From: Bacteroidales bacterium
GTDB lineage: Bacteria > Bacteroidota > Bacteroidia > Bacteroidales > Marinilabiliaceae
Direction: 5' to 3'
DNA length: 44,958 nucleotides
Assembly (NCBI GenBank): GCA_017417385.1
Contig: JAFPZF010000042.1
Span: forward strand, 1-44,958
Part shown: positions 6,384 through 29,671 of the stretch, in pieces
Numbering within the stretch: position 1 is the stretch's first letter
Layout of the letters: every line of letters begins with the position of its first letter
The notes under the pieces: generated by a model
Told to the model about the DNA's origin: nothing
Database searches by the model: none
Seen by the model: the letters and a program-made list of their open reading frames with translations, nothing else
Made by a program: the position numbers and the translations under genes

Positions 6384-6741
6384 AGGGGATTTATAGAAAT
6401 TAGATTTTTCCTGGCTTGCGAACTTTTGAACACCAGAGTGTACTATAAATACATGAGGATTTCAAAAGAGAGCATATCATTTCGATTAAGCGAGAGAAAA
6501 CTTTCGATTAAGCGAGTGCATAACGAGCTTGCTCGTTATGCCAAGCGGTAGAAAAGTCAGCGAAGCTAACGTGAGAAAGTAAGGCGCCAGTCAATGGAGC
6601 TTGCTCCAATTTGCCGAGCTTTTCGATTGAGCGAGTGCAGAACGAGCTTGCTCGTTCTGCCGAGCGTGAGAAAAGTCGACGAAGTCAACGTGAGGAATGA
6701 AGACAAAGTCAACGCAGAAAAAGCAATTTATAGTAGTTCCC
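6384..6741. repeat. Structured interspersed element, copy 1 (358 bp)
   Basis: It begins AGGGGATTTATAGAAATTAG and ends GCAATTTATAGTAGTTCCCT, an imperfect inverted pair. Inside are arms CTTTTGAA and TTCAAAAG and three copies of a module built as arm, GATTAAGCGAGTGC (or GATTGAGCGAGTGC), palindrome, GCCGAGCGTGA, arm. Two palindromes, at 6518-6541 and 6637-6660, have arms GCATAACGAGC/GCTCGTTATGC and GCAGAACGAGC/GCTCGTTCTGC. They differ by a T:A to G:C pair swap that preserves pairing. No open frame is conserved between copies. Confidence 0.85.
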
Positions 6742-6778
6742 TAAAAAAAGCCCCGAGTATGGTCACCACCTCGGGGCT
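6742..6778 (-). terminator. Rho-independent terminator of the GH3 gene
   Basis: On the minus strand, AGCCCCGAG pairs with CTCGGGGCT and is followed by TTTTTTAG, 25 bases past the GH3 stop codon. It ends exactly where the structured element begins. Confidence 0.9.
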
Positions 6779-6802
6779 CTATTATTACGTCCTATCTCGC
6801 CT

Positions 6803-8506
6803 CTACTCGACGACGAGCTTCGCAAACTTCGGATACCTCTTCTCGTCCTTGTACTGTAACAGCATCAACTTGAACTGTCCGTCCCTAGCGCCCTCTGCTA
6901 TGCACTCCTTCTTGAACTTCTCGTATGCGTTGTCGACAAGCCTGTGTGTCACCGGCTCCTTGACCCTGAACGAGTCCCTCTTGGCCTCATACTCCTGGTT
7001 GATCTTCTTCAGATTCTCGTCGACTGCCTTCGTGAACTCCTCAGCCTGCTCCTGTGTCGTCTGCTGGTCGTCGAACTCATAGAAGAAATGATATCCCGAA
7101 TAGTCAGGATCAGCAAAGCCGATGAAGAAGTGTACCTTCCTGCCGAGCTGCTCCTCTGCCTGATGTACCGCCATGATGTACTGCCTCTCGTGCAGCTTCT
7201 CGCCCGTCAACGTGATGATGCCGTTCACCTTCTGTATGAACTGTATCATCGGGATCTCTCCGTCAAAGCCCGTCACCTGTATCAGGTCGTTCATGTTATA
7301 CCTGTACAGTCCGCTCCACGTCGTCACGTACATGCAGTACCTCTTGCCGAGTTCGAGCTGGTCGAGCGTCAGGAACTCTGGATTTGGATTCTCAAGATCC
7401 TCCTCCTTCGTGAACTCGAAGAAATGCTTGTGCGCAAAGAGCGTCGTGTCCTCCTTCTCGTTCATAACAAGACCCGGACGGCACTCCGATGCGAAGTAAC
7501 CGAACTCGATCTCCTTCGTCGTCTCCGGGAACGCATCCTTTATCTTGTCAAAATATATCTTCGTGTTTCCACAGTGCCACGTGTTCACGACAGCCATGTC
7601 CGGCCAGTAGTGCTTCGGCAGGACCTCGCCATACTTCTCCTTCAGTTCCCTCAGCTCCTTAGCCCTCTCCGGGTTCGGCTTCAGCCTGCTCTTCAACGCC
7701 TCCCTGACGTGCTGCGGGATGTCAAGATCTGCCTTCAGCGTGCCGTTCTCGATGTCCTTGACATACTCGTCATAGAACTCGTTGACGTTCTTCATCATCT
7801 CGATGATTGTCGACGGGTTCGCCGTGATCAGGACTGTCGAATTATACTCGATGCCGAAACGCATGATGGTGTAATACCTCGCCCTGTAGTCCTTGATCTC
7901 GAACACGTCCGCCGGCGACGAGTACGCGACCTTTACGAAGTCCGGACAGTTCGTGAACGATACTCCACTGACGCTGCCCATGATCGTGCCGTCCGGAGCA
8001 TATCCCTCTATCGCCTTGCCGACTATCGAGACTACACCACCCGCAAATGAGTGTTTGTTCGCCGAAATCAACGTCGACAGCCACAGCTTGTTCATCTTGC
8101 CATACACGTCCTCGAAATACTTGAACGTGATTGGTATGTTCTTCGGCAAGTTCGTCGTGCCACTCGTCGTAGCATACATCTTCGGCTTTCCCGGGAACAG
8201 GATGTTCTCCTCGCCATGCATGTGCCTGTCAATGTACGCCCTCAAATCCTCGTAGTCATTGATCTTCACATACTTCTTGTAAGCCGCAAACAGCCCCTCG
8301 GGCGTCTTCTCGGCTACTATCTCCGCAAAATGATGGTTCTTACCATACTCCGTGTCCTTCGACTCCGTCAGTATGTCCCTGAGGGTCTTGGCCTGCGTCG
8401 CCTTCACGTCCTTCGAGGCCTTCCTAAGTTTCATCCTCTCAATGAAACCTACTATCCCAATGGCGAAGTTTATCTTTCTCCACCCACTAATCCATTTGCC
8501 TTGCAT
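6803..8506 (-). CDS. GH3-family acyl-adenylating enzyme (GH3 auxin-responsive promoter family)
   Basis: A 567-residue member of the GH3 family, firefly-luciferase-like (ANL) enzymes that adenylate a carboxylic acid and, in plants, join it to an amino acid. The ATP-binding loop is ATTSGTTNLPK at about residues 112-122. Downstream are EFGYFASECRPG (about 330-345) and TWSGLYRYNMNDLIQVTGF (adenylate-binding and hinge region), followed by a GEKLHERQ motif and a C-terminal domain. Length fits bacterial GH3 proteins, whose substrates are not known. It has no signal peptide. The promoter box is at 8532-8539 and its own terminator at 6742-6778, so it is probably monocistronic. Confidence 0.9.
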   Translation of the reverse strand: MQGKWISGWRKINFAIGIVGFIERMKLRKASKDVKATQAKTLRDILTESKDTEYGKNHHFAEIVAEKTPEGLFAAYKKYVKINDYEDLRAYIDRHMHGEENILFPGKPKMYATTSGTTNLPKNIPITFKYFEDVYGKMNKLWLSTLISANKHSFAGGVVSIVGKAIEGYAPDGTIMGSVSGVSFTNCPDFVKVAYSSPADVFEIKDYRARYYTIMRFGIEYNSTVLITANPSTIIEMMKNVNEFYDEYVKDIENGTLKADLDIPQHVREALKSRLKPNPERAKELRELKEKYGEVLPKHYWPDMAVVNTWHCGNTKIYFDKIKDAFPETTKEIEFGYFASECRPGLVMNEKEDTTLFAHKHFFEFTKEEDLENPNPEFLTLDQLELGKRYCMYVTTWSGLYRYNMNDLIQVTGFDGEIPMIQFIQKVNGIITLTGEKLHERQYIMAVHQAEEQLGRKVHFFIGFADPDYSGYHFFYEFDDQQTTQEQAEEFTKAVDENLKKINQEYEAKRDSFRVKEPVTHRLVDNAYEKFKKECIAEGARDGQFKLMLLQYKDEKRYPKFAKLVVE

Positions 8507-8531
8507 AAATCATTTACATGTTTTCGCACTG

Positions 8532-8539
8532 CAAAGTTA
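8532..8539 (-). promoter_or_regulatory. -7 promoter box of the GH3 gene
   Basis: The minus strand reads TAACTTTG, matching TAnnTTTG, 26 bases upstream of the GH3 start codon. A convincing -33 element is not seen. Confidence 0.5.
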
Positions 8540-8641
8540 CTAACCCTACCTCTCTTAAATGTTAGTAGTTTTACGAATTTTGGCTGCTCCTTATACCCCT
8601 ATTCCCCACGCCATATCGCCCCTCCAGCCCTCTGTAACTTC

Positions 8642-8696
8642 CGCCCCGAAGGGGCAAAATAGTCCTTTACCTAGGGCGACACCCTAGGTAAAGGAC
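8642..8696 (-). terminator. Tandem hairpins after the DUF4861 gene, including a perfect 15-bp stem
   Basis: GTCCTTTACCTAGGG (8662-8676) pairs perfectly with CCCTAGGTAAAGGAC (8682-8696) around a 5-base loop. On the minus strand it is followed by TATTTTG and then a second hairpin, GCCCC-TTC-GGGGC (8643-8655). It lies 30 bases past the DUF4861 stop and probably ends that transcript. AATTGC/ATTGCTC runs (8698-8740) flank it, as in the 1-1240 repeats. Confidence 0.6.
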
Positions 8697-8724
8697 AAAT
8701 TCCTCATTCCTAATTGCAAATTGC

Positions 8725-9981
8725 TCATTGCTCATTGCTTATGCTCACCATCTTCGCCTTCATCGGCTCCTTTAGGTTCGCCGCATACTCCTCAAGATAC
8801 TTCCGCCACTCACCAATGCTGTCCATCCCAGCCTCGCTCCACGCCGCTCCCCAATAGTAATCCAACGACTCCCCCTCAAACATCTCCCTCATCCCGAGCA
8901 CATGCCCAAACGCCCCACGCTCCTTAGCCTCCGCCTCGCCAAACAATACGAGACGTGCATCAGACAACTTCTGCACAAAGACCGCTCCTACGTATATCTT
9001 CCCGCTCTCCCCGTTTCGCCTGTCTGTCGGGTCTTCATAGCCGACGACGCATTTCTCGACATCCGCAAAGTACTCGCCGCCATCACTATGATGAACGACC
9101 GGACCAGCCACGACCTCCGTCCCCTCCTTGACGCCTTTGTACTCGACGACTGTGTGGTTCAGCCTCGACTCTGCATCAAGGGTTATCGTCCTGACTTCCG
9201 TTACTCTCATCTCGCCTATGTGCTTCGGCTCATACGTCAGCCTGACTCTGAACCTCAACGGCCCATTCTCGAGTATCTCATACGTCTGGTAGCAATACGG
9301 ATATAGTATCGAGTCCCCCAGCATCAGCGCAGACGCACCTCCTCCGAGTGTCGGTCCCACGCTGTAACAGTCGAGCCCGTCGCCATGATCGTTATGATAG
9401 CTGGTCTCGTCTCGTAGTCTGTTCGCAGCCCTCCTGTCCTCGGGATTTCCAGTCCGCCGCAACGAGTCTATCGTATTGTTTGTGGCCGGGTCCAGATGCT
9501 TCGCATACCTCGCATCGACGACCGGCTCCTCCGTGTTCTTTACCCAGATGTCATATCCATACGCCTTCTCGCCTCTCGCCTGTAGTGCCGGCCCATACGC
9601 CCTGAATGCTATCTTGTCGTTCTCCCACGCTATGTCGTCGAGCCTGTTCGCATATACTTTCCCCGTTGCCAGGGTCTTCATCTCCTCCGGCTTCTCCCCG
9701 ACGATCCGATACGTCGCCTTGCTCCTCGCCTTGACGTCAGCCACAAATATCAACGCCCTGTCCTGCGTCACCTGATAATCGACCTGCTTCCCCGCCGCAT
9801 CTTTTATCGTGACTGCCTTCCCCGCAAACTTCCCCGCCTCCTTCGACGTCAGCGATACCGTCACGACTTCCCTCCGGTCTCTGTCCGTACTGTTCGAGAC
9901 CTCTATGCCGTTTCGCACCCCCTCGCAAGACTCGACCATCAGCACCATCGCCAATGCTGCTATTATTCCTCCCGTCTTCAT
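8725..9981 (-). CDS. DUF4861-family lipoprotein
   Basis: A 418-residue secreted or surface protein matching the DUF4861 family, commonly found in Bacteroidetes loci for uronic-acid glycans. The start at 9981 is chosen because AGGAGG (9988-9993) lies six bases before this ATG. A longer in-frame TTG start at 10005 would overlap the preceding terminator. A short lipoprotein signal ends at Cys19 (VESC). Recognisable blocks are WENDKIAFRAYGPALQ, the GYDIWVKN segment, SYHNDHGDGLDCYSVGPTLG with several His/Asp, and near the end YYWGAAWSEAG. The gene follows kduD behind a terminator, so part of its expression may be separate. The activity is unknown to me. Context suggests a role in processing the same uronate-containing glycan. 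Confidence 0.8.
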   Translation of the reverse strand: MKTGGIIAALAMVLMVESCEGVRNGIEVSNSTDRDRREVVTVSLTSKEAGKFAGKAVTIKDAAGKQVDYQVTQDRALIFVADVKARSKATYRIVGEKPEEMKTLATGKVYANRLDDIAWENDKIAFRAYGPALQARGEKAYGYDIWVKNTEEPVVDARYAKHLDPATNNTIDSLRRTGNPEDRRAANRLRDETSYHNDHGDGLDCYSVGPTLGGGASALMLGDSILYPYCYQTYEILENGPLRFRVRLTYEPKHIGEMRVTEVRTITLDAESRLNHTVVEYKGVKEGTEVVAGPVVHHSDGGEYFADVEKCVVGYEDPTDRRNGESGKIYVGAVFVQKLSDARLVLFGEAEAKERGAFGHVLGMREMFEGESLDYYWGAAWSEAGMDSIGEWRKYLEEYAANLKEPMKAKMVSISNEQ

Positions 9982-9987
9982 CTCTGT

Positions 9988-9993
9988 CCTCCT
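9988..9993 (-). promoter_or_regulatory. Strong Shine-Dalgarno deciding the DUF4861 start
   Basis: AGGAGG on the minus strand is six bases from the ATG at 9981. Such a strong site is unusual in Bacteroidales and supports the shorter start. Confidence 0.7.
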
Positions 9994-10003
9994 GATACTT
10001 GTC

Positions 10004-10037
10004 AAAAAAGCCGTGTCGCTTGTCTCCGCGACACGGC
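10004..10037 (-). terminator. Rho-independent terminator after kduD
   Basis: On the minus strand, GCCGTGTCGC and GCGACACGGC (10-bp perfect stem) are followed by TTTTTTG. The hairpin lies between the kduD stop (10078) and the DUF4861 start (9981). Confidence 0.9.
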
Positions 10038-10077
10038 TCCATTTTATTTATTTTCTTCTCCCTTTCGGTAGTCTTCC

Positions 10078-10884
10078 CTACTTCGGCTGCTTGCCGATGT
10101 AGGCGAGGATACCTCCATCTACGTAGAGGATGTGTCCGTTGACTGCATCCGATGCGCTCGACGCAAGGAATACTGCCGGACCACCAAGCTCCTCCGGATT
10201 AAGCCACCTGCCTGCCGGTGTCTTCGCACAGATGAACGAGTCGAACGGATGACGGCTGCCATCTGGCTGCTTCTCCCTCAACGGCGCCGTCTGTGGCGTT
10301 GCTATGTAACCCGGGCCAATGCCATTGCACTGGATGTTGTACTCGCCATACTCCGAGCAGATGTTCCTCGTCAGCATCTTCAGGCCACCCTTAGCTGCTG
10401 CGTATGCCGATACGGTCTCTCTTCCGAGCTCACTCATCATCGAGCAGATGTTGATGATCTTTCCTGCCCTCCTCTCCATCATCTCTGGTATGACGGCCGA
10501 CGAGACGATGAACGGACCGACAAGGTCGATGTCGATGACCTGCTGGAACTCTGCCCTGCTCATCTCGTGCATCGGGATGCGCTTGATGATGCCCGCATTG
10601 TTCACGAGGATGTCTATCTGACCAACCTCCTTGTGGATCCTCTCGACGAGCGCCTTGACGTCTGCCTCCTTCGTGACGTCACATACATAGCCGTGGACAT
10701 TCGTGATGCCTGCCTCCTTGTATGCGGCAAGTCCCTTGTCTACGAGCTCCTGCTTGATGTCGTTGAAGATGATGTTCTTGATGCCTGCTCCTGCAAACGC
10801 CTTTGCAATGTTGAAGCCAATGCCGTATGACGCTCCCGTCACCCACGCATTCTTCCCCTCTAGTGAGAATGGATTGTTTGCCAT
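10078..10884 (-). CDS. kduD: SDR oxidoreductase, KduD / gluconate 5-dehydrogenase type
   Basis: A 268-residue classical short-chain dehydrogenase. The nucleotide-binding motif TGASYGIG is at residues 16-23, NNAG at 95-98, and the catalytic Ser148, Tyr161 and Lys165 (YAAAK) are present. The PG motif (GPGYIATPQT) and C-terminal VDGGILAYIG match the KduD/IdnO group. Next to kduI, the likely reaction is NAD-dependent reduction of 2,5-diketo-3-deoxygluconate to 2-keto-3-deoxygluconate. Sequence alone cannot exclude gluconate 5-dehydrogenase. It is cytoplasmic. It lies 159 bases downstream of kduI in the same orientation and ends at a strong terminator, so kduI-kduD is probably one transcript. Confidence 0.88.
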   Translation of the reverse strand: MANNPFSLEGKNAWVTGASYGIGFNIAKAFAGAGIKNIIFNDIKQELVDKGLAAYKEAGITNVHGYVCDVTKEADVKALVERIHKEVGQIDILVNNAGIIKRIPMHEMSRAEFQQVIDIDLVGPFIVSSAVIPEMMERRAGKIINICSMMSELGRETVSAYAAAKGGLKMLTRNICSEYGEYNIQCNGIGPGYIATPQTAPLREKQPDGSRHPFDSFICAKTPAGRWLNPEELGGPAVFLASSASDAVNGHILYVDGGILAYIGKQPK

Positions 10885-11043
10885 TATTTCTTCCTCCTTT
10901 GTATGTTTATTACTCTTTTCGCGACCTCTCCGGATTCTGCCCCTCCGACGCTCTCCTCTTCAGCCGTCTCTCTCTATCTGTCGAGAGTTCCGACCTCAGA
11001 TTCTATATCGTTCGCCAGAAAAGCCTCCTCCCTCAAGCCGCTC

Positions 11044-11880
11044 TTACTTTAAGTCTGTTATCTTCGAGAAGTCCTGATCCCCATAGTCCAGGTTCTCCCC
11101 TGCCATGCCCCAGATGAACGTGTAGTTGTGCGTCGCTGCTGCAGAATGTATGCTCCAGCTCGGCGACAAGACCGCCTGCTCATTGTGCATCCAGATATGC
11201 CTCGTCTCATCGACCGGTCCCATGAAGTGGCACACTGCATCCTCCTCCGGCAACTCGAAGTAGAAATACGCCTCCATCCTCCTGTTGTGGACGTGAGCCG
11301 GCATCGTGTTCCAGACGCTCCCCGGTCGTAGCTCCGTCATCCCCATCTGCAACTGGCATGTCGGCACGACCGAACTGACGATCATCCTGTTTATCTGCCT
11401 GTCATTCGAGCCCTCAAGCGAGCCCAGTACGAGGACATCTGCCTCGCCCTTCGTGACTTTCTTGCTCGGATACTCCTTGTGTGCCGGCGCCGAGTTGAAG
11501 TACAGCTTCGCTGGCTTATTCCTATCGACCGACGTGAACGTGACGTTCCGCTTTCCCCGACCGATATACAGCATGTCCTTATACCCGACCTCGAACTTCT
11601 CCCCGTCGGCCTCGACTATCGCCGTACCGCCTACGTTGATTATGCCCAGTTCCCTGCGCTCCAAGAAATATTCGGACTTGAGGTCCTCGACGGTCTCGAG
11701 CTTTATGGTCTTATATACTGGCATGATGCCGCCGACTATATACCTGTCATACAGCGAGTACACCATGTTGATGTCGTCGCGCGTGAACACGGTCTCTATC
11801 AGGAACTCTTTCCTCAACCTCGCCGTGTCATAGTGCTTCGCATCTTCCGGATGCGACGCATATCTCAATTCGTAATTCAT
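11044..11880 (-). CDS. kduI: 5-keto-4-deoxyuronate isomerase (4-deoxy-L-threo-5-hexosulose-uronate isomerase)
   Basis: A 278-residue KduI, the same length as characterised homologues. It is a cupin-fold zinc enzyme that converts 5-keto-4-deoxyuronate, the spontaneous product of unsaturated uronates released by polysaccharide lyases, to 2,5-diketo-3-deoxygluconate. The metal ligands are all present at the positions expected from the E. coli enzyme: His196 and His198 in PAHVHNRRMEAY, Glu203, and His245 in SWSIHSAAATHNYTFIWGM. It is the upstream partner of kduD and shows that the locus handles lyase-derived uronic acids. It is not contiguous with the SusCD part of the locus, because def and ruvX lie in between. 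Confidence 0.95.
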   Translation of the reverse strand: MNYELRYASHPEDAKHYDTARLRKEFLIETVFTRDDINMVYSLYDRYIVGGIMPVYKTIKLETVEDLKSEYFLERRELGIINVGGTAIVEADGEKFEVGYKDMLYIGRGKRNVTFTSVDRNKPAKLYFNSAPAHKEYPSKKVTKGEADVLVLGSLEGSNDRQINRMIVSSVVPTCQLQMGMTELRPGSVWNTMPAHVHNRRMEAYFYFELPEEDAVCHFMGPVDETRHIWMHNEQAVLSPSWSIHSAAATHNYTFIWGMAGENLDYGDQDFSKITDLK

Positions 11881-12002
11881 CTACCTGTTCCTTCTCGCTT
11901 GGGGGCTACTCTGTCTTCCTCAGCCTCACCCCGTTTGTTTCCACCGCTAATTTAATTATTTTTTGCAAATATGCACCTCTCTCGCCACTCTTTTGTTCCT
12001 TC

Positions 12003-12554
12003 CTATGGCGCGACGGTCCTGTACTTCGTGTTGACCTTCCCCTTCATGATGTTCGTCAGCTTGTTCTTTATGAGCCGCTTCCTGAGCATCCCGATGTGGT
12101 CTATGAACACCTTACCGTCCAGATGGTCATACTCGTGCTGCACTACTATCGCCCCATACCCTTTGATGACCTCCTTGTGGTGAACGAAGTCGAGGTCGTC
12201 ATACTCTATCTCTATCTCTGTGCTCCTGCTGACGTTCTCGTTGATGCCCGGCAGACTCAGACAACCTTCGTTGGTCTCCATCTCGTCTTCCGACCTCTTC
12301 GTGATGTGAGCATTGATGAACACGCGCTTGAACCCCTCGACCTCCGGATAGTCCTCCGCAACTGGCGATGCGTCTATGACGAACAGCCTGATCGACTTCC
12401 CGACCTGTGGCGCTGCTATGCCGATTCCATCACTCTTATACATGGTCTCGAACATGTCGTCCACGAGCTTCTTCAACTCGGGGTAGTCCTTCGTGATGTC
12501 CTCCGCTACTTTCCTGATTACGGGATGTCCGTAAAGATAAATTGGTAGTATCAT
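12003..12554 (-). CDS. def: Peptide deformylase
   Basis: A 183-residue peptide deformylase, which removes the formyl group from nascent N-termini. All three motifs are present: [10 protein letters not shown] (residues 43-52), EGCLSLPG with metal ligand Cys98, and QHEYDHLDG with His140, Glu141 and His144. The frame stays open for a further 79 codons upstream, but that stretch translates a purine-rich tandem repeat into Arg/Glu/Gly-rich sequence, while [15 protein letters not shown] is the conserved deformylase N-terminus, so the start is placed at 12554. It lies 311 bases downstream of ruvX. The def-ruvX pairing is common in Bacteroidales. Confidence 0.95.
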
Positions 12555-12695
12555 TATTCTTCTCTTTTTATTCTTTCTTTTCTGCCGCCACCGACGCCTT
12601 CTTGCTAGCTCTGGCTCTCCGACGACTGCTCTACTGTCTGCCCGGCAATCTGTTCTCGTCCTCCCCCTTCTCTTCCCTCCTCTCCCCTTCTCTTC

Positions 12696-12752
12696 CTCTT
12701 CTCCCCTTCTCTCCCTCTTCTCCCCTTCTCTCCCTCTTCTCCCCTTCTCTCC
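12696..12752. repeat. 19-bp tandem repeat, three perfect units
   Basis: Three exact copies of CTCTTCTCCCCTTCTCTCC, preceded by degenerate copies from about 12660, fill most of the ruvX-def gap (12555-12865). It is a pure pyrimidine/purine tract. No gene is seen in the gap. Confidence 0.9.
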
Positions 12753-12865
12753 CCCTGTCTTCCTCCGAGATTCCCGTGCATTCCTCTGCAAAAATAGTCA
12801 AACTTTCTCTCTATTCCCTTTTTATTCTCCCTTTTTGCTCCAATTCGTGCTTTTTCCCAGCCTCT

Positions 12866-13282
12866 CTACCTCGACATCTCCATGTATGTCTGCAATATTA
12901 TTGTCGCCGACACCATATCGACTAGCCCGTTCTTGTTGTTCCTGTCCTTCTTGCTGACTCCCCCGTCTATCATCGCCCTCTGCGCCAGCTTGGTCGTAAA
13001 TCGCTCATCAACCATCTCGACTTTCATGTCGGGTAGCTCCTTCCTGAGTCTCCCGAGAAACGGCTTTATGTACGCCATGGTCTCGCTCTCGCTCCCATCC
13101 ATCTGCCTCGGCTCCCCCATCACGATGACGCCGACGTCTTCCTTTTGGACATAGTCCTTGACGAACTTCATCAGCTCTCCCGTAGCTACTGTCGTCAGCC
13201 CGCCAGCCACGATCCGCATGGGGTCACTGACTGCTATCCCGCAACGCTTCTTCCCATAGTCTATCGCCAATATCCTGCTCAT
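12866..13282 (-). CDS. ruvX: Putative Holliday junction resolvase RuvX (YqgF)
   Basis: A 138-residue YqgF/RuvX family nuclease with an RNase-H-like fold, implicated in 16S rRNA 5' processing and recombination. The N-terminal LAIDYGKKRCGIAVSD contains the first catalytic Asp (residue 8). VIVMGEPRQMDGSES, VDERFTT and a C-terminal GLVDMVSATIILQ supply the other acidic residues. The start codon lies only four bases after the stop of the upstream DUF5703-like hydrolase gene, so this housekeeping gene appears to be co-transcribed with the polysaccharide locus. def follows downstream. Confidence 0.93.
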   Translation of the reverse strand: MSRILAIDYGKKRCGIAVSDPMRIVAGGLTTVATGELMKFVKDYVQKEDVGVIVMGEPRQMDGSESETMAYIKPFLGRLRKELPDMKVEMVDERFTTKLAQRAMIDGGVSKKDRNNKNGLVDMVSATIILQTYMEMSR

Positions 13283-13286
13283 CTCG

Positions 13287-15473: not shown

Positions 15474-15526
15474 TGCGTGCTTCTGTGTTTAGTATTGAAT
15501 TCTACTGGGATTTTCTATAAATATAT

Positions 15527-15789
15527 AGGGGAGTTCTAGAAATTAGATTTTTCAAGGCGTGCATGCACTTAAACACCGGAGTTTACTAAAGGAAACCTTT
15601 CGATTAAGCGAGTGCAGAGGGAACTTGTTCACTCTGCCGAGCGTGAGAAAGGTCAGCGAAGCAAATGAGGATTTTAAGTGCGACGCACAACATTCCGATT
15701 AAGCGAGAGAAATGGAGCTCGCTCCAATTTCCGAGCCTGAGGAATGGAGGCAACGCCAACGCAGAAAAAGCAATTTATAGAAGTTCCCT
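15527..15789. repeat. Structured interspersed element, copy 2 (263 bp)
   Basis: It starts AGGGGAGTTCTAGAAATTAG and ends CAATTTATAGAAGTTCCCT. The internal arms are GCACTTAAA (15565-15573) with TTTAAGTGC (15673-15681), ACCTTTC (15595-15601) with GAAAGGT (15647-15653), and CATTCC (15691-15696) with GGAATG (15741-15746). The core stem differs in sequence from the other copies but still pairs. It occupies nearly all of the gap between the acetylesterase and DUF5703-like genes, ending 12 bases from the acetylesterase stop. Confidence 0.85.
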
Positions 15790-15801
15790 ATAGAAGATTC
15801 C

Positions 15802-17283: not shown

Positions 17284-17295
17284 GTATCTATATGA

Positions 17296-17334: not shown

Positions 17335-17369
17335 ATTAATCATTTTCCCCTTGTTGCAAAAACATTATG

Positions 17370-17698
17370 AGGGTCTAGAAATTAGATTTTTCACTTGTGC
17401 GATTAAGCGAGCGCAATAGAGCTTGCTCTAATTGCCGAGCGCGAGCACATGAGGCGTAGCCAAGGCGCACGAGACTTTGAACACCGGAGTGTACTGTATG
17501 AAACCTTTCGATTAAGCAAGAGCAGAACGAGCTTGCTCGTTATGCTGAGCGTGAGAAAGGTCAGCGTAGCTACATGAGGATTTCAAAGTTGAGTGCAACA
17601 TTCCGATTAAGCGAGTGCAAAGCAAGCTTGCTTGCAATTTGCCGAGCGTGAGGAATGAAGGCAACGCCAACGAAGAAAAAGCAATTTATAGAGCTTCA
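17370..17698. repeat. Structured interspersed element, copy 3 (329 bp)
   Basis: It runs from GGGTCTAGAAATTAGATTTT to GAAAAAGCAATTTATAGAGC and touches the SusD stop codon. Arms are TGTGC/GCACA, ACTTTGAA (17474-17481) with TTCAAAGT (17582-17589), ACCTTTC (17503-17509) with GAAAGGT (17555-17561), and CATTCC (17599-17604) with GGAATG (17652-17657). Each encloses a GATTAAGCGAG (or similar) module with a central GAGCTTGCTC- or CAAGCTTGCTTG-type palindrome. Confidence 0.85.
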
Positions 17699-17699
17699 T

Positions 17700-19946
17700 T
17701 TAGTTGGCAAGTGGATCAAAAGTACCATTCGCCCCCCCATTATTGCTATCCTTCCATCCTATGGTCTGCAGCAATCGCGTGTTGTCACTCATCGTGCCCT
17801 GGTTGAACCCGAGGAAGTAGTACTTCGCAAAGTAATGCATGTACTCGTCGTCATGGTTGTTGTCCCTCGCATCGCCCTTGTTCTCCTTGAACGCTAGATT
17901 GTCCTGATACCATGCCTTCAAGGTCTCCAACTGGCTGTCAAGCGGCTTCCGCAAGTCGACGGCATCACACCTCGACGCCTTAGCCGCTGTATAGTAGTCC
18001 ACCGACTTATACGCCTCGTTCGACTTCTTGAAACTCAAGACGAGCGGGTCGCTGTCCATCGTCGTTCCACTCATCCCGTAGTCCTTCGGGACTCCATACT
18101 TGTCAGCCGTCCTGTACTGGATGGTCTCGCGCCTCTGTCCGTTCATCGGCTTGAACCCGAGCCATTCACACGTGTTGCCGTTCCATCCGGTCAACTTCCA
18201 CGTCGACGGACATCCCTCGACTTCGCTCATGTTCGCACCTCCGTCAAAAAGCATCCACCTTCTCAGGTCCTCAAATCGCTTGCCCTCGTATGCGAGCTCT
18301 ATCATCCTCTCATAGAGGACTGCACTCATGCAAGCCGCCTGGTCGCCCTCGATGCCTGCCGACAGCCCGTAGTTGTTCTCGCCGGTGTACCCGACTCGCT
18401 CCCTGAGCTTCCTGAGCTGCTCGACAGCCTCATCCATGTGACCCGCACCACACGCCGCCTCCGCAAAGTTCAGCAGGCACTCGGCATAGCGTATCTCGAT
18501 ATACGGCGCCCCAGAGAACTGGAATGCCTTGCCATCTGTCGACGCATCGTATGAATAGAGCGCTCCGCTAATGTCCTTGTCGTCTGTCCTCTTCCTGACA
18601 TATACGCCCTGCTTGCTCGTCAAGAGGTTGTCCGCTCCGTATGAGTTTCCACTCTCGACGTTCCCGGCATCGCTCTTATCGACATACCATACGTAGTTCC
18701 ACAACTCGTAATCCTCGCCACTGTTGTAGTCCGGATTATCGACGTTACCGGTCCGTGCATCGCCCGTGAAAGCCCACCTGAATCCTGGGAACGCAAAGGT
18801 CCTGTAGAATCTCGGGTCCCTGTTCATGAACGGATACTCCGCGTCATACTCTATCGCAGACGCCTCGAGCTTGCTGTACGTCTCGACTGTCGACGGCTTC
18901 TTTCCGTCCTTCATCGGGAACTGGTTGAGTATCATCGACGACGGCGCCTTGCCACCACTGCCCGACGTGTTCCTCGGCCTTATCGAGTTCTCCCACGTGT
19001 TGTTCTTCTGCCCGTCTCCGGTCTTCACTGTGTTGAAGAGGGTCACGAATATGGCCTCGTTCGACTGATACTGTGAGAATACGCCCGCAAAACTTGCTGC
19101 ATTGGTCACACCGGCTCCGGTATACAGCCCGTGTCCCTCTGCCGTGATGGCATCAAGGTCGGCCTTCATGGTGTTATACGCATTGTTCCACCTGCTCTGG
19201 TCGTTTGCCCTGTTCATGACTGGGCTCGCCCATAGCAACAAGACTCTGCCCCTCAACGCCAACGCCGCACTCTTGGTGATCCTGCCATATCCGTCCGAAC
19301 TGTAGCTCTTCCCGTCCAGCATCCTCGCACTGGTCTCCAGGTCGCTGAGTATGAACTCTATGCACTCCCTCGCCGACGAGCGTGGTACGAACGAGCCCTC
19401 GTCCGGCAACTGCACTTCCTTGACTATCGGAACTCCACCATACCACCTGACGAGCTGGTAGTAGCACCACGCCCTGAAGAAGTATGCCTGACCTAGCAGG
19501 ACGTCCTTGTCCTTCTGGTCTAGCGTTCCATTGCTGATGCCGGTTATGACGTCATTGATGTTCCTGATTCGTCCCCAGACGCTCTGCTGGATGTTGTTGC
19601 TCTGATTCCTGAAGAAGTCCGGGACTATCGTTCCGTTCATCGCGTCATACTCGCTGTCCGGATTGACGAAGCCTCCAAAACCTGCATACTCCTCCGTGCT
19701 CTTGCTCTCCTCGTCTGGGAGGCCCGTCGAGTTGTTGTTCCACGCCGACCCTGTGTTTGGATTCGGCAAGCACCACGAGTACAAATCGTTGACTCGACCG
19801 TTCGCACCGTCTATGTTGTTGTATATCTCGGTGCTGACATTGTCATAATTTCGCTTGTCCTGCAGAAACTCATCGCTGCACGACATCATGCTCATTGCCG
19901 CTATCACCGACAACAACGCTATCCCCCTATATCTATTGTCTTTCAT
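17700..19946 (-). CDS. SusD/RagB-family nutrient-binding lipoprotein
   Basis: A 748-residue surface lipoprotein of the RagB/SusD family, the glycan-binding lid of the SusCD importer. The start at 19946 gives a signal ending at Cys23 (MSMMSC), while the longer frame adds 11 unlikely residues and overlaps susC. The body carries the expected TPR-like helices: the N-terminal QDKRNYDNVSTE, GQAYFFRAWCYYQLVRWYGGVPIV (the family's most conserved segment), and the C-terminal segment YEGKRFEDLRRW near YERMIELA. At roughly 750 residues it is longer than the usual 500-650, suggesting extra loops. It lies 19 bases after the SusC stop, an obligate operon partner. Confidence 0.95.
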   Translation of the reverse strand: MKDNRYRGIALLSVIAAMSMMSCSDEFLQDKRNYDNVSTEIYNNIDGANGRVNDLYSWCLPNPNTGSAWNNNSTGLPDEESKSTEEYAGFGGFVNPDSEYDAMNGTIVPDFFRNQSNNIQQSVWGRIRNINDVITGISNGTLDQKDKDVLLGQAYFFRAWCYYQLVRWYGGVPIVKEVQLPDEGSFVPRSSARECIEFILSDLETSARMLDGKSYSSDGYGRITKSAALALRGRVLLLWASPVMNRANDQSRWNNAYNTMKADLDAITAEGHGLYTGAGVTNAASFAGVFSQYQSNEAIFVTLFNTVKTGDGQKNNTWENSIRPRNTSGSGGKAPSSMILNQFPMKDGKKPSTVETYSKLEASAIEYDAEYPFMNRDPRFYRTFAFPGFRWAFTGDARTGNVDNPDYNSGEDYELWNYVWYVDKSDAGNVESGNSYGADNLLTSKQGVYVRKRTDDKDISGALYSYDASTDGKAFQFSGAPYIEIRYAECLLNFAEAACGAGHMDEAVEQLRKLRERVGYTGENNYGLSAGIEGDQAACMSAVLYERMIELAYEGKRFEDLRRWMLFDGGANMSEVEGCPSTWKLTGWNGNTCEWLGFKPMNGQRRETIQYRTADKYGVPKDYGMSGTTMDSDPLVLSFKKSNEAYKSVDYYTAAKASRCDAVDLRKPLDSQLETLKAWYQDNLAFKENKGDARDNNHDDEYMHYFAKYYFLGFNQGTMSDNTRLLQTIGWKDSNNGGANGTFDPLAN

Positions 19947-19965
19947 TGCTCTCTGGATTCTTGCT

Positions 19966-23304: not shown

Positions 23305-23339
23305 TGTAAGCTATGGTTATTGTCCTCGTTTATTGTTTT

Positions 23340-24683
23340 CTACGGCAGCCACCTCGGGTCGCCTGCCCCTGCTGCTATCTGCTCCGACCCACTTACTGTA
23401 AAGTCGCCATTAGCCGCATCCCTGAATCCTGGATCTGTCACTATCGCACTCTCCGAATTGTCATAGACTGTGCTGCCATCATCGCTCTGACCAGTCTCAA
23501 AGTCTCCACTCGACGTGCCGTATGTGTTGTGGTCAAACAAGACTTCCTTGTACGTCTCAGCAGTCCTGCCGCCGAGGAATCGACGCGCTATATCCTTGCA
23601 ACAGTTCATGAATATGCACTTCGTCATCGTCCAGCCTGACTCTGCCTTCCCTGAGAACCCACTGTAGTTGCCGAACTGCCCACCTATACACATGCTGTAG
23701 AATGTGCACTGGTTGAACGTCACCGAACATGTCTCGTAGCCCGCCTTCGTGCATCGGTTGCCTCCATACTGGACGATGTACTTGACTGCCGCCTCGCCCG
23801 TGTTATAGAACGTCGTGTTCTCTACTTTCAGGTCGTTTATCGCACCGTTGCCTTTGTTCACGAAGAACAACGCTCCTGCCTGTCCCTTGCTCGTCGTCTT
23901 GGTGTGGAAGACGCAGCCATCTACGACGAAGTCCTTTATCCAGTAGTTCTCCTGGTTGTCATATATTATGTATGTCTGGAGTCCCTCGACGTTGCAGTTC
24001 TTTATGTTCGTCGGCTTCACTATGTGCCTGTACGAGTTCGACGCATTCCCGAGCTTATACTCCTCCACGACTGCCTCCTTCGAGAACGCAAGCAGCGGAT
24101 TCGCACAACTGTCGAGATTTACGTCAAGCTCCTTCAACGTCATCCCGGCACTGTACTCTATCGCGCCATTCTTGAGATAAGAGACTGTCGCATGCGGCGT
24201 GTTACCGAGTGTCCTCAGCCCGACATTGTTCGTCTTGAAGTCTATCTTCCCAGATACTGTATAGACGCCCCCCTTCTCGAGGTCAAACATCAGCTCCTCA
24301 TCGCTCGCCGGCCACTCGAAGTCCTTGAAGTACTCGTAAAGGTCCGTCCCGCTCGGGATCGACTGATATCCGAGGGTGTACGAGTCAAAGGCTATCGTCG
24401 TCGCAGACGGCGCATCACTGTTCCCGAGACTCTTGTCTCCCAAGGTCTGTATCGAGAGCGTGTACTCCGTGTCCTCCGTCCTCGGCAGTAGCAACGAATA
24501 ACCATCTACCACCGTGTCCGTAGCAACCTTCCACTCGCCCGCCGCATCTACATACGTCAACACTACATGAAATCCTACCGCTCCATACTGCACTGGCCAA
24601 CTGACATTCGTATTCGTACGCGTCGCGTTCGGCGCTATGCTGACATTGCTCGCCTCCGGAGACACCATCTGCGTGTTCCGCAC
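23340..24683 (-). CDS. Surface glycan-binding beta-helix protein (DUF4957/DUF5123-like), 5' end frameshifted
   Basis: A 447-residue body (opened by GTG at 24683) without its own signal peptide. Residues 10-110 look like a fibronectin-type domain (TRTNTNVSWPV, TEYTLSIQTLG). Residues 150-420 are repeated short beta-strands with N- and C-rich turns (KNCNVEGLQTYIIYDN, VENTTFYNTGE, VTFNQCTFYSMC, MTKCIFMNCC), the right-handed parallel beta-helix of DUF4957/DUF5123 proteins in pectin-type loci. The C-terminus (DPGFRDAANGDFTVSGSEQIAAGAGDPRW) is typical of that family. The frame stays open upstream to FDDGESFSHSVRNTQ, and the missing lipoprotein signal lies just upstream in another frame (24709-24810). 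One base removed near 24711-24716 would join them into about 488 residues. The role is probably glycan binding; lyase activity is possible but unproven. Confidence 0.75.
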   Translation of the reverse strand: MRNTQMVSPEASNVSIAPNATRTNTNVSWPVQYGAVGFHVVLTYVDAAGEWKVATDTVVDGYSLLLPRTEDTEYTLSIQTLGDKSLGNSDAPSATTIAFDSYTLGYQSIPSGTDLYEYFKDFEWPASDEELMFDLEKGGVYTVSGKIDFKTNNVGLRTLGNTPHATVSYLKNGAIEYSAGMTLKELDVNLDSCANPLLAFSKEAVVEEYKLGNASNSYRHIVKPTNIKNCNVEGLQTYIIYDNQENYWIKDFVVDGCVFHTKTTSKGQAGALFFVNKGNGAINDLKVENTTFYNTGEAAVKYIVQYGGNRCTKAGYETCSVTFNQCTFYSMCIGGQFGNYSGFSGKAESGWTMTKCIFMNCCKDIARRFLGGRTAETYKEVLFDHNTYGTSSGDFETGQSDDGSTVYDNSESAIVTDPGFRDAANGDFTVSGSEQIAAGAGDPRWLP

Positions 24684-24708
24684 CGAATGAGAGAAACTCT
24701 CCCCATCG

Positions 24709-24810
24709 TCAAACTTCGTCCTGCGCGCAGGAATACGCTACCATCGACATCGCTACCGCCGACAACGCCACAAGCATCCCACGACATGACTTGTGTTTTC
24801 TTACTCTCAT
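24709..24810 (-). pseudogene. Detached lipoprotein signal peptide of the beta-helix gene
   Basis: ATG at 24810 opens 33 codons, MRVRKHKSCRG then a hydrophobic stretch ending MSMVAYSCAQDEV and a stop. This is a textbook lipoprotein signal with Cys at residue 28. The stop arises only because of a frame change. In the other frame the next residues are FDDGESFSHSVRN, continuous with the downstream protein. Confidence 0.7.
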
Positions 24811-25188
24811 CTTCGTTCTATTTTCTTTTTGTCTATGTTTGCTTCCTTTTCGCCCACTTCACGACTTACCCAAGTCGCTCATTAAGCACATAAAATTACT
24901 AAAAAAATCATAATGTCAATACTTCCACCTCAAATTTACGCCTGCTTTCGCTTTTTTTCTCTTTTTTTCTCTTTACCCCAGAAACAAAAGCTATTGGCGT
25001 CCTCACCTCTGCTCGCCACCCCTGATTGCAACCTCCATGTAGCCTCTCTGGGTTAGTCTTGTATTAGAGTTGTCCCTCTTATGTTAATCTCACGCCCCCC
25101 CTCTTAGGTGTCTCCCCTACCCTCTCTTAATTTGTCTATACCGCCCCTATTGTCTCCTTCCCGCCCTTCCCCACTCGCCTACACACAT

Positions 25189-25228
25189 AAAAATTTTGCG
25201 CAAGGCATCTATCCGACACCTTGCGCAA
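25189..25228 (-). terminator. Rho-independent terminator of the fucI operon
   Basis: On the minus strand, TTGCGCAAGG pairs with CCTTGCGCAA and is followed by AATTTTTATG, 28 bases past the fucI stop. The remaining 24811-25188 holds no gene. It has T-rich runs and a TTAG-rich stretch (25048-25080) that resembles 1243-1272 and 41790-41825. Confidence 0.85.
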
Positions 25229-25255
25229 CTTCTTTTCCTGTCGTCTATGAAAGAC

Positions 25256-27046
25256 TTATCGCTTTGTCACTCCATACAAAGGCCCGAAATTCTGGCACGC
25301 CCTGTAGTCCGCACCCTCCTTGTCCATGCCGAACGAGTTCCAGACTGCCGGACGGAAGATGTCCTTGTCTGCGACGTTGTGCATGCACACCGGTATCCTC
25401 AGCAACGACGCCAAGGCTATCAGGTCGGCTCCTATGTGTCCGTGAGCTATCGCACCATGATTCGCCCCCCAGTTGTTCATGACTGAATAGACGTCCTTGA
25501 ATGCGTCCTTCTGCGGGTCAAGTCTTGGCGTAAACCACGTCGTCGGCCACGTCTTGTCTGTCCTCTTGTTCAGCGTGTCATGGACGTCGGCAGGCACGTC
25601 TATCGTCCACCCCTCTGCTATCTGCATGACTGGACCAAGGCCCTTGACTATGTTGACCCTCAGCATCGTCATCGGCATCCCGCCCTTCGTCAGGAAGTTA
25701 GACGAGTATCCTCCGCCCCTGAAGTAATCTCTGTCAGCCGGATACCACGTCGTAGCCCCGAGGCATGCCTCGACGTCTTTCTCTGTCATGTTCCACGGCT
25801 CCTTCATCGTCGGCCGTCCTTCTTCGTCCTTCATGGCGCCCGTCGCGTCAAGTGTCGTAGCTCCAGAGTTGATGAGGTGTATGAAGCCTCGAGCCGCAAG
25901 CCCCTTCAACTCGTGCCCAGTGACTCTCTTGACGGCCTCGGGACTCCAGTACGTCCTTATGTCGCTGAACATGACTCCCTTGTTCGTCAGCAAGTGCCCG
26001 AATAGCATCGAGATGCCGTTCAGCGAGTCGTTCTCTGTCGCTAGTGTGTCCGCCTCCCTGATGCCGTTCCAGTCAAACGACGTGCACATCAGCGCCTCCG
26101 GGAAGTCGAAGTTTGGCTGGTAGTCTGTCCACTGCCGCTGCCCCTGCACGCCTCCGAGTATCGCGTTGTGTCCGAGTGCCTCCTCTTTGTAGCCCATCTC
26201 CAGCAACTTCGGATTGCCATGCATCAGGTCCCTGATTATCATCATGTTCTTGACGGTGAACTCCCAGTCTGCATCCTTCTGCTCCCGAGTCTTCTGCTTC
26301 TCCGGCCTGTTGTAGTCCGTCCCCTCATGCGGCTTGCAATACTTCTTGGTCCACTCCATCGCCTTCTTGAACTCCTCGTGGTCGTATATCTCGTAATCAA
26401 CTCTCCTCAGTATCTCGACGAGGTCTGCATACTCTGTCCTGATTCCGAGGTAGTCCTGGAAGAAGTCGGCATTGACTATCGACCCGGCTATGCCCATGCA
26501 CGTGTTGCCAAGTGAGAGGTACGACTTGCCCCTCATGGTCGCAACGGCCTGCGCCGCCTTAGCAAATCTGAGTATCTTCTCCGCGACATCCTCGGGTATG
26601 CTGTTGTCCGAGAGGTCCTGGACGTCATGCCCGTAGATGCCAAACGCCGGGAGTCCCTTCTGAGCATGCGCCGCCAGCACCGCCGCAAGATACACTGCCC
26701 CAGGCCGCTCCGTCCCGTTGAAGCCCCATACTGCCTTCGGATAATATGGGTTCATGTCCATCGTCTCCGACCCGTAGCACCAGCACGATGTGACTGTGAT
26801 TGTCGAGCCGACTCCCGCATTCTCGAACTTCTCCGCACACGCCGCACTCTCCGCTACTCGTCCTATTGTCCCGTCTGCTATGACACACTCGACCTTGCTG
26901 CCATCCCCGTTCCTGAGATTGCTCTCTATCAAGTCCTTCACTGCCTTCGCTAGCGCCATCGTCTTGTCCTCGAGGCTCTCCCTGATACCCCCCTGGCGCC
27001 CGTCGATGACTGGGCGTATTCCGATCTTTGGATATGTCTTTCCCAT
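25256..27046 (-). CDS. fucI: L-fucose isomerase
   Basis: A 596-residue FucI, which interconverts L-fucose and L-fuculose (also D-arabinose and D-ribulose) using Mn2+. Length fits the family (about 590). Typical features are the N-terminal [43 protein letters not shown], metal-site segments [12 protein letters not shown] (Glu) and MFSDIRTYW (Asp), and a C-terminal [16 protein letters not shown] with the ligand His. It is cytoplasmic, the last gene of a three-gene operon after a symporter (40-base gap) and a DHDPS-family aldolase. No fuculokinase or fuculose-phosphate aldolase is in the window, so the pathway is incomplete here. Confidence 0.95.
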
Positions 27047-27086
27047 CGTTATGCCGTTTTTGGTTTGTTCTATTACTCTATGGCTC

Positions 27087-28574
27087 CTAAAGGTCTTTAC
27101 CCTTAGGGGTCTTTTTTAATACTTTGTTCACTGCCGCCGACAATACGAATCCGACGGCAAAGATTGTTGTCGTGCCCAGGACTATCGCCAAGTACTCGTG
27201 CAGGTGTATCCCCGGGAGGCCCAGCTTCCCTGCCAACGATATCCACCCTATCACGAAGATGCCACACACGCAACCTACTATCGCCGCCGTCTTGCTGACG
27301 TGCCTCGTCATGTAGCTCAACAGGAACAGCCCCAGCATCCCTCCAGAGAATATCGACGACAATGTCCACCAGGCATCTATGATGCTGTCTACTTTCAACA
27401 TCATTATCGCTACCAGCATCCCGAGCGCCCCGACAAGAATGCTCGCGATTCTCAACACTCCTATGTGATGGTCCTTGTGCCCTCTCATCAACGGCTCGTA
27501 GTAGTCCTTCAGTATTATCGTCGCAGCCGATGTCACGCTCGTCGAGACTGTACTCATCCCCGCCGCAAATATGCTCGCTATCAACAGGCCTCTCAGCCCG
27601 TATGGCAACGAGGTCACTATGAAATACGGAAAGACGTAGTCGGGCTTCGACGCTATCTCCGCCGGCAACTCGCCGACTCCTACTTTGTAATATGAGTACA
27701 ACGCCGTCCCGATCATGAAGAACAACGCCGAGACGGGTATGAAGAGATACCCTCCAAACAATGCGGAGAACCTCGCCTCCTCATCTGTCCGCGCCGCATG
27801 ATACCGCTGGACGTAGTTCTGGTCCACCCCGTAGTTCTGGAGGTTGATGAAGACTCCGTATATCAGACACACCCAGAACGTGCTGCTCGTCAGGTCCGCG
27901 CCAAACGACCCTAGCGAGAACTTGTTCCCGACCTCACTGTCTATCGCGACTCTGAACGTCTGCATCACGCCCTCCGGCATCGACCAGAGTAATATCCCGA
28001 GGCAGAGTATCGCCCCGCCTATCAGGATTATACCTTGTATGGCGTCCGCCCAGATGACTGCCCTCAAACCGCCCATCATCGAGTATAGTATTATCGCAGC
28101 CGACGTCAGGCAGATGACGACGTGCAGGTCCCAACCCATCAAGATGTGCATCGGGACGGCTAGCAGATACAATATGCTCCCCATCCGCGCTATCTGGGTC
28201 AACAGGTAACAAAGCGACGCATACATCCGCGCCCACTTACCGAACTTCTCCTCGAGATGACTGTACGCCGAGACTCGTCCCCCGTTCCTGTAAAATGGGA
28301 CGAAATGCTTCGCCGCAAAATACGACGCTATCGGTATCGACAGCGAGAACACGAACGCATTCCAGTCCGACGCAAAGGCCTTCCCTGGATAACCTATGTA
28401 ACTGATCGACGAGACGTATGTCGCAAATATCGACATGCCGACTACCCACCCCGGCAGACTGCGCCCCGCCGACGTGAAATCATCTGCCGACTGGTCGCTC
28501 CTGAAGAACGAACAGCCGAACAACACTACACCAAGCGTAAATATGACGAAGACTATGATGTCTACGACCTCCAT
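27087..28574 (-). CDS. Sodium:solute symporter (SSS family)
   Basis: A 495-residue integral membrane protein with about 13 hydrophobic segments, of the sodium:solute symporter family. Characteristic pieces are [32 protein letters not shown] near the N-terminus (substrate and sodium site, TM1-2), [22 protein letters not shown] (SSS signature region) and [25 protein letters not shown] (sodium-site helix). It has the residues expected for Na+ coupling but no motif that fixes the solute. Context with fucI and a 2-keto-acid aldolase suggests L-fucose, a related sugar, or a sugar acid. It sits 17 bases after the aldolase gene and 40 bases before fucI. Confidence 0.92.
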
Positions 28575-28591
28575 ACTCCGACCTGTATCTC

Positions 28592-29527
28592 CTATATGGC
28601 TATCTTCCCACCGACTATCGGCAGCGCATCAAGTGCCCGACGTATCTTCTCGCGCTCCGGCTCCAGGAACTTGTAGAATGGCGGCGACACAAAGTCATCC
28701 TTGATAATCCCTAATACTGACAACGCACACTTCAATCCTTTTAAATATGACGACCCATGCCTGCCTACTGTGTATATGCTCGTCGATATCTGCATGATGA
28801 CCCTCTGCAACTTCTGGACTCTGTCGATGTCTCTGTCCCTCGCCGCCTCATACATGCCGACATACAGCTCGGGGAACATATTCGCGCCACCACTGACTCC
28901 TCCATGAGCCCCGAGTAGCACGCTCTCGCCCATCATCTCCTCCGGACCGACAAGCATCGAGAACCGCTCATACGCCCTGACTGTGTGCATGACGCTCTGA
29001 AAGTACACGGCATTCCCACTCGAATCCTTGAAACCGAGCACCCTCTCGTCCTCCGCCAACTTCAAGACTGTGTCTGCCGAAAACGATACTTTCACATGGC
29101 TCGGCATGTTGTATAGGAATAGTGGCAACGGCAACTGCGGTATCAACTCCTGATAATACTGTAGCAACTCCGGCTGTCCCGTCGCAAAGTAATATGGCGG
29201 CGCCGCCACCAGCGCATCTGCACCCGCATCCGCAGCCACTCGCCCGAGATTGCAGCTCTCAGCTATGCTCGTGTCCGTCACGCAGACGAGCAACGGCAAC
29301 CGACCTCTGTTTATCCGCGCCGTCTCACGTATCATCTCCTGCCTCGTCTTCACCGGCAACGACTGCTCCTCGCCTGTCGTCCCCAATATGAATAGTCCAC
29401 TGACTCGCCCTGCTATCAGATGCTCCACGAGATTCTCTAGGCTCGCGACGTCAAGCGTCCCGTCCGACTTCAACGGCGTCACGAGCGGAGGCACTATGCC
29501 CCTTATCGGCTCATTCTTCGATATCAT
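28592..29527 (-). CDS. DHDPS / N-acetylneuraminate-lyase family aldolase
   Basis: A 311-residue TIM-barrel class I aldolase of the dihydrodipicolinate synthase/NAL superfamily. GTTGE is at residues 49-53, the catalytic Tyr139 lies in LYNMPS and the Schiff-base Lys167 in GFKDSSG. Such enzymes cleave or dehydrate 2-keto-3-deoxy acids or make dihydrodipicolinate. A linkage to sugar transport and fucI argues for a 2-keto-3-deoxy sugar-acid aldolase rather than lysine synthesis. In Campylobacter jejuni a dapA-annotated homologue belongs to the fucose pathway, an analogous arrangement. It is the first gene of the aldolase-symporter-fucI operon, with structured element copy 4 starting 22 bases upstream of its start codon. 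Confidence 0.88.
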   Translation of the reverse strand: MISKNEPIRGIVPPLVTPLKSDGTLDVASLENLVEHLIAGRVSGLFILGTTGEEQSLPVKTRQEMIRETARINRGRLPLLVCVTDTSIAESCNLGRVAADAGADALVAAPPYYFATGQPELLQYYQELIPQLPLPLFLYNMPSHVKVSFSADTVLKLAEDERVLGFKDSSGNAVYFQSVMHTVRAYERFSMLVGPEEMMGESVLLGAHGGVSGGANMFPELYVGMYEAARDRDIDRVQKLQRVIMQISTSIYTVGRHGSSYLKGLKCALSVLGIIKDDFVSPPFYKFLEPEREKIRRALDALPIVGGKIAI

Positions 29528-29548
29528 TGTCTCTTCTTAAATTTTTAT

Positions 29549-29671
29549 AGGGGGCTTCTAGAAATTAGATTTTTCAAGGCACACGAGGCTTTGAACACCG
29601 GAGTGTACTATAGTACATGAGGATTTCAAAGTTGAGTGTAACGCAGAAAAAGCAATTTATAGAAGAACCCT
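29549..29671. repeat. Structured interspersed element, minimal copy 4 (123 bp)
   Basis: It starts AGGGGGCTTCTAGAAATTAG and ends GCAATTTATAGAAGAACCCT. The core arms CTTTGAA (29589-29595) and TTCAAAG (29625-29631) enclose ACACCGGAG and the palindrome GTACTATAGTAC. There are no GATTAAG modules, so this copy looks like the unexpanded core of the family. The rest of 29528-29978 is pyrimidine-rich filler. Confidence 0.8.

Follow-up and report, generated by a model that had tools for sequence, protein, structure and literature searches.

Element copies, cores and modules

The window analysed here is the whole stretch of 44,958 nucleotides (positions 1-44958) of contig JAFPZF010000042.1 from a Bacteroidales bacterium, and it contains four copies of a short interspersed element built as a long hairpin core with smaller hairpin modules inserted into it. 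GC skew is negative across the window and nearly all called genes, which include SusD-like, TonB-plug, L-fucose isomerase-like and esterase genes, are on the minus strand. The source of the window is a 3.6-Mb draft genome, 98.64% complete, which carries Bacteroidota-type genes (SusD, GH3, TonB plug and others). A preliminary description made from the letters of the window had reported four copies with imperfect terminal inverted repeats, core arms that differ between copies but pair, and covarying modules, and all of this was confirmed by reading each copy (Table 1). Two of the copy bounds agreed with that description and two were shifted by a few bases. The view of modules inserted into a core also held, but the copy at 6384 has its modules nested within a larger module. 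Exact 3-bp flanking repeats were found at two of the four copies, and the 3' end of copy 3 runs 1 bp into the stop codon of the minus-strand SusD-like gene.

Table 1. Element copies and module motifs in the window, with coordinates in window positions
Feature	Position	Strand	Remarks
Copy 1, 359 bp	6384..6742	+	Core with nested modules; flanks AAA/AAA
Module motif nested in copy 1	6506..6551	+	Arm ACTTTC
Module motif nested in copy 1	6625..6670	+	Arm CTTTTC
Copy 2, 263 bp	15527..15789	+	Core and 2 modules; flanks ATA/ATA
Module of copy 2	15602..15647	+	Arms CCTTTC/GAAAGG
Module of copy 2	15697..15741	+	Arms CATTCC/GGAATG
Copy 3, 335 bp	17366..17700	+	Core and 3 modules
Module of copy 3	17401..17445	+	Arms TTGTGC/GCACAT (TGTGC/GCACA pairing)
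Module of copy 3	17510..17555	+	Arms CCTTTC/GAAAGG
Module of copy 3	17605..17652	+	Arms CATTCC/GGAATG
Copy 4, 123 bp	29549..29671	+	Bare core; shows the fold most clearly

The core forms a long hairpin in which the termini make up the outer stem, followed by an inner stem, a small internal loop (CCGGAG/TGAGGA) and an apical stem, for example GTGTACT/AGTACA. The modules, of about 70 bp, consist in order of an arm, CGATTAAGCGAG, a palindrome with an apical CTTG, CCGAGCGTGAG and the matching arm; they sit at apparently preferred insertion places and can be nested within one another. When the modules simple enough to count (138 of 156) were analyzed, at least five of the six arm pairs were formed in 133, with a mean of 5.70 pairs compared to 4.21 (standard deviation 0.092) when the arms were reshuffled, and the CTTG loop was present in 131. 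Because only a few arm types exist, these modules represent lineages and not independent changes.

Modules were also found outside the elements, in arrays that lack the outer termini. Such arrays of nested modules (L379-L382, in genome G000 on C32, C41, C45 and C56), some of which adjoin CTCCGACGACTCC-type repeats and further hairpins, carry the same modules in a second, composite form. In addition, modules are located inside open frames of two congeners, G003 and G006 (L384:3-773 on the minus strand and L385:402-1301 on the plus strand). The G003 frame, in which the module is bounded by AAT and AAC, matches Rhs_assc_core from profile position 31 of 76, and since this match starts directly after the module, the module probably interrupts the frame of an RHS-associated core domain. 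The G006 frame had no domain match.

The four copies belong to a family of about 115 copies in the genome. Searches with 20-base motifs of the 5' and 3' ends, allowing up to three mismatches, detected 115 and 118 places, respectively, whereas reversed-pattern controls of both motifs gave 0 places in the same genome, so that the family is far above chance and larger than was first claimed. Of the places listed, the first 100 for each motif could be paired into 75 elements, with size clusters at 123, about 193, 263, 334, 401 and 473 bp, two elements near 600 bp and some between the clusters; the size classes correspond to the 123-bp core plus multiples of about 70 bp. For the counts given below, 120 5' ends in the fetched stretches yielded 99 pairs, of which 96, including all four from the window, were kept as full copies after two pairings due to chance (22 and 59 bp) and a duplicate from the reverse strand had been removed, and 21 unpaired 5' ends (contig ends and lone ends) are outside all copy counts. 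The copies range from 123 to 610 bp and are located between genes called by a simple in-house gene caller, with a few overlapping a called gene; they are short, numerous and intergenic, as are miniature inverted-repeat transposable elements (MITEs). At L032, L037, L054 and L109, TTCTAGAAATTAG-like 5' ends stand alone without a 3' end, and some of these lone ends seem to be paired with a new partner close by.

Covariation and the strand that folds

In an alignment of 23 bare cores with 46 pairs (A1), both sides change in 22 of the pairs, with 81 doubly changed cells compared to 20.7 (standard deviation 4.0) in shuffles, and 94.6% of the cells are paired compared to 35-50% with the alignment slid. 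A second alignment (A3) was made of 67 matches to a covariance model of the core (R1), which came from 57 of the 58 stretches given (E<=0.1); here both sides change in 43 of the 46 pairs, in 854 cells compared to 261.4 (standard deviation 16.2), although the rows were aligned to the model, so that the pair counts lean towards it, and E is close to 0.05 in the weakest rows. The rows were chosen by an exact motif, and therefore the invariance of the innermost stem is a selection artefact. The preliminary description had allowed that covariation might prove no better than background in more copies, but it exceeded both controls. The pairing also extends outwards, since the outer letters -6 to -2 pair above the shuffled level in the 96 copies, for instance at position -5 (87 paired compared to 76.8, standard deviation 1.4), with no excess at -7.

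The fold is stronger on one strand. The strand that is the plus strand of the window, designated F, folds at lower energy than its complement, R, in every one of the 96 copies, whether RNA or DNA parameters are used (means of -83.6 and -70.1), and the median folding z of the 23 bare cores is -6.8. When the pairs that are mostly G.U are excluded, the non-Watson-Crick cells of A3 read on F are G.A in 181 cases versus U.C in 9, and the wobble cells are G.U in 113 versus A.C in 65. The outer stem from -6 to +2 has 100 G.T versus 21 A.C cells, with similar numbers (16 and 12) at -6 to -4 alone. The wobble comparison is biased to the strand used for fold prediction: in variable pairs, the fold predicted from F gives 31 G.U versus 11 A.C, but the fold predicted from R also gives more G.U than A.C (12 versus 7).

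What is kept between copies and genera on F is the pairing together with CAAGGC/AACGCNG, CGGAG/TGAG and repeated CGAG/CGAG tandem G.A, and the CTTG apical loop in the modules, whereas the arms are not conserved; the same pairing and loop letters are apparently kept between phyla. CGAG/CGAG is expected to form sheared G.A pairs, and among RNA loops G(CUUG)C is a stable one. Because the pairing and the internal-loop letters, and not the arms, are kept on F, some factor would be expected to read the folded F strand, as single-stranded DNA or as RNA. The proposal that the element acts as a structure is supported by covariation and strand-specific folding, but RNA is indistinguishable from single-stranded DNA here. 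Alternatively, the covariation could have arisen when quasi-palindromes were corrected by template switching, leaving a fold without function. Arms that are widely different yet complementary are what such a process would leave, but it is expected to erase one-strand mismatches, and the G.A cells on F have been kept; we therefore regard it as very improbable.

Orientation and mobility

Of the 96 copies, 66 are antisense to both neighbouring genes and 4 are sense, 10 lie between converging and 8 between diverging genes, and 8 have a neighbour missing on one side. When GC skew at four-fold sites was used and the G-rich strand was taken as leading, F was found to be opposite to the G-rich strand in 90 of the 96 copies, and in 67 of the 68 copies with |z|>=3. 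Most genes are on the G-rich strand in most stretches read, with a clear exception at C41:10001-30000. Third-position skew mostly follows the strand and not the sense of the genes: of 13 stretches that have genes on both strands, 11 show opposite signs for the two sets of genes, each read in its own sense. Net gene direction and skew are discordant for 11 of the 68 copies, and 10 of these 11 follow the skew (binomial p 0.012). On the basis of these discordant cases, gene direction was set aside as the cause of the orientation, and the pattern shown is that orientation follows replication rather than genes in this genome. The common orientation of the four window copies, as first described among co-directional genes, is thus part of a non-random arrangement, but it runs against the flanking genes, and across the 96 copies orientation tracks replication better than gene direction, which is a cause other than the one implied. 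Tn7 and IS200/IS605 are known to have an orientation linked to replication, and the same has been reported for several insertion sequence families, according to the part of the source available (PMC5371812).

Other genomes weaken a general link to replication, which is weak or lacking in three of them. The ratio of copies opposite to the leading strand is 23:7 in G254, 14:8 in G186 and 11:14 in G125 (16:7, 8:4 and 1:2, respectively, at |z|>=3), an antisense-to-gene bias is present in G125 (18:7) and absent from the other two (12:10 and 12:18), and three one-contig genomes of the phylum have 3 to 6 matches each, 15 in all, which are too few to judge. Furthermore, the copies are not independent because they share loci and ancestry.

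These data also bear on the possibility that the element is a cis-acting RNA, such as an mRNA stabiliser, a terminator or a processing site, which was the view of the preliminary description. The covarying structure would fit this, and the copies often adjoin stop codons (within 30 bp for 42 of 76). In addition, five weaker matches in a Clostridiaceae genome (L292:1082-3601, E 1.9e-5 to 0.014) flank in sense a gene that we take to be the 16S rRNA gene, and these are compatible with folding as RNA. However, in 66 of the 96 copies the strand that folds better is antisense to the genes on both sides, the discordant copies follow skew over net gene direction, and the antisense bias is itself absent in two of the three other genomes. 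An active role in transcript processing is therefore not upheld, and a cis-acting RNA appears improbable.

It is also possible, though not probable, that the orientation alone results from purging after insertion, in which both orientations insert and hairpin cleavage or deletion then removes the copies whose strong F hairpin is on the lagging-strand template. F is the better-folding strand in every copy and is off the lagging-strand template, opposite to the leading strand, in all but one of the 68 copies, as such a loss would predict. On the other hand, R folds well too, so that the contrast between the strands is moderate, and G254, G186 and G125, which have similar elements, hold both orientations relative to skew.

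Evidence for mobility comes from the ends of the elements. The termini are inverted repeats, and exact flanking 3-mers were found at 24 of 95 copies compared to 6.1 expected, a signal near the top of a scan over 1331 combinations of offset and length. On the same flank diagonal, identities numbered 265 compared to 209.4 (z 6.8), with values up to 3.6 at other shifts. This statistical evidence indicates a T/A-rich target duplication of 3-4 bp. Because of the inverted termini, the copy number and the short target duplication, the view that the elements are MITE-like, which had been one of the readings first offered, is supported, and the size classes agree with it.

Several results are unfavourable to transposition with the help of a resident partner. 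The autonomous transposon with the same termini that had been envisaged was not found in limited searches: PF01797 (Y1_Tnp) had 0 matches in the 98.64% complete draft (the control was positive in 5 of 14 genomes), a DDE_Tnp_1 (PF01609) partner had no match in the draft genome, and PF05598 had five matches in nine other genomes with no matching termini nearby. The ends of a partner insertion sequence would match either AGGGRNNTTCTATAAATT or AGTGTCTGTCCATAAAGTC. Similarly, no empty site was found at the one locus tried (L079), where the flanking genes are apart in 14 congeners. With respect to other vehicles, the core motif and two termini had 0 exact matches in viral_contigs, and blastn against phages gave no match to a Stutzerimonas copy. 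Fourteen plasmid records match, 13 from Pseudomonas and 1 from Halomonas, with no listed gene underneath the matches in a gene table that is incomplete.

A transposon system that works on single strands, like IS200/IS605 or REP/REPIN, in which a Y1 transposase reads the hairpin, was also considered. To our knowledge, the IS200/IS605 family makes no target duplication, and one is indicated here; furthermore, no Y1_Tnp was found in the draft genome, and F is off the lagging-strand template. In its favour, hairpins specific to one strand and an orientation linked to replication are as reported for IS608 in the part of the source available (PMC5371812). Taken together, we find a system of this type quite improbable.

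The explanation that we favour, and hold to be somewhat probable, is that the elements are non-autonomous, trans-mobilised MITEs, members of a superfamily that is widespread and has a conserved single-strand hairpin as its body. A transposase provided in trans would act on the terminal inverted repeats, and transposition would leave the 3-4 bp T/A-rich duplication, while some factor would read the folded F strand. Because F is almost always opposite to the leading strand in this genome, either insertion would be tied to the replication fork or copies in the other orientation would be lost later. Modules of similar design insert into the hairpins, giving nested copies.

Distribution and relation to known repeats

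When the 123-bp core was searched with blastn, it was found in 4 of 61 genomes, its own included, and in 0 of 14 congeners, although a later search gave short module matches in three congeners. The covariance model R1 of the core, the kind of search of related genomes that the preliminary description had proposed, reached much further: within the order, and counting its own, 65 of 206 genera and 97 of 393 genomes had a match. The matches numbered 33 to 103 per genome in six genomes, where a strong copy can match both strands. Termini vary between groups, but the core stays. An exact motif search of named genomes, in which bins can be misassigned, gave at least 118 stretches; 80 of these were read and carry the motif in other arms, and 58 of the 80 were searched with R1. 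Among the matches listed are Bacteroidales, Pseudomonas, Stutzerimonas, Halomonas and kin, and Mariprofundales, and also Chitinophaga, Amoebophilus, a Bdellovibrio bin and Clostridiaceae. A second model built from the A3 matches (R2), searched at E<=1e-5, detected 45 of the 395 genomes of the phylum; these represent 6 of 171 genera, and 40 of the 45 belong to a single family. The apical stem varies among the R2 matches (GCGTAC with GTACGC or GTACGT). This likeness across phyla may be due to descent, transfer or convergence. In G125 and G254 (L191, L192, L193 and L223), other short palindromes, and an insert of the form CGATGYGTTGAGC..GCCGAAA, are located inside element stems, and hairpins within hairpins therefore occur in other genera too.

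Comparison with Rfam 15 gave 0 matches in the window at the gathering score and 0 matches in 801 bp of L114 at E<=1; at E<=5, L319 gave only two mir-2820 matches, far below the cut-off. A literature search of partial coverage, which is no proof of absence, found no description of this core. Compared by architecture, and as far as the available part of the source describes them, the BOX elements of Streptococcus pneumoniae are closest in build, consisting of boxA, a variable number of boxB, and boxC; they are likewise small, modular, folded, present in many copies and suspected of mobilisation in trans, but here the modules nest, the arms covary, the orientation follows replication in this genome, and the core is found again in other members of the order and outside it (PMC3049150). 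The REP/BIME/REPIN-RAYT systems, from the portions of the sources at hand, are also intergenic mosaics of short palindromes and hairpins, whereas the elements here have long inverted termini, an indicated target duplication, one prevailing orientation and no Y1 transposase found (PMC2817692, PMC3116915). Rickettsia palindromic elements are described, in the section available, as palindromic units in frame inside genes, which resembles the modules in the open reading frames of G003 and G006; in contrast, the module here has conserved CGAG/CGAG loops and is mostly inside other hairpins (PMC10969869). The MITEs of Porphyromonas gingivalis, such as BrickBuilt (23-nt tandem repeats with IS5-type termini), and the R0/R2 repeats of Pseudomonas fluorescens share with our family that they are many-copy MITEs, in Bacteroidota and Pseudomonas, respectively. 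In the parts of the sources available, the termini of both match resident insertion sequences, and no shared covarying core is described for them (PMC4596501, PMC2718517). The P. fluorescens repeats were set apart by their description there and not by consensus, and one family may overlap with ours (PMC2718517).

The body of the element is here the conserved part, while the termini change and the fold is constrained on one strand. In the usual view, MITEs are short-lived debris of one insertion sequence, with a body free to drift. A further proposal, which we make tentatively and consider somewhat unlikely, is that one structured motif, specified by pairing and a few internal-loop letters on only one strand, has been maintained over several phyla by MITEs whose termini are unrelated, read in folded form by a factor and placed in step with the replication fork, and that it would thus represent a new class of mobile structured element and not just a further family of MITEs. 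The family also provides a ready set of copies for testing the effect of replication direction on the insertion or survival of hairpins. The conserved body, the changing termini and the one-strand constraint on the fold together point to a recognition step in the spread of small repeats that has so far gone unrecognised.

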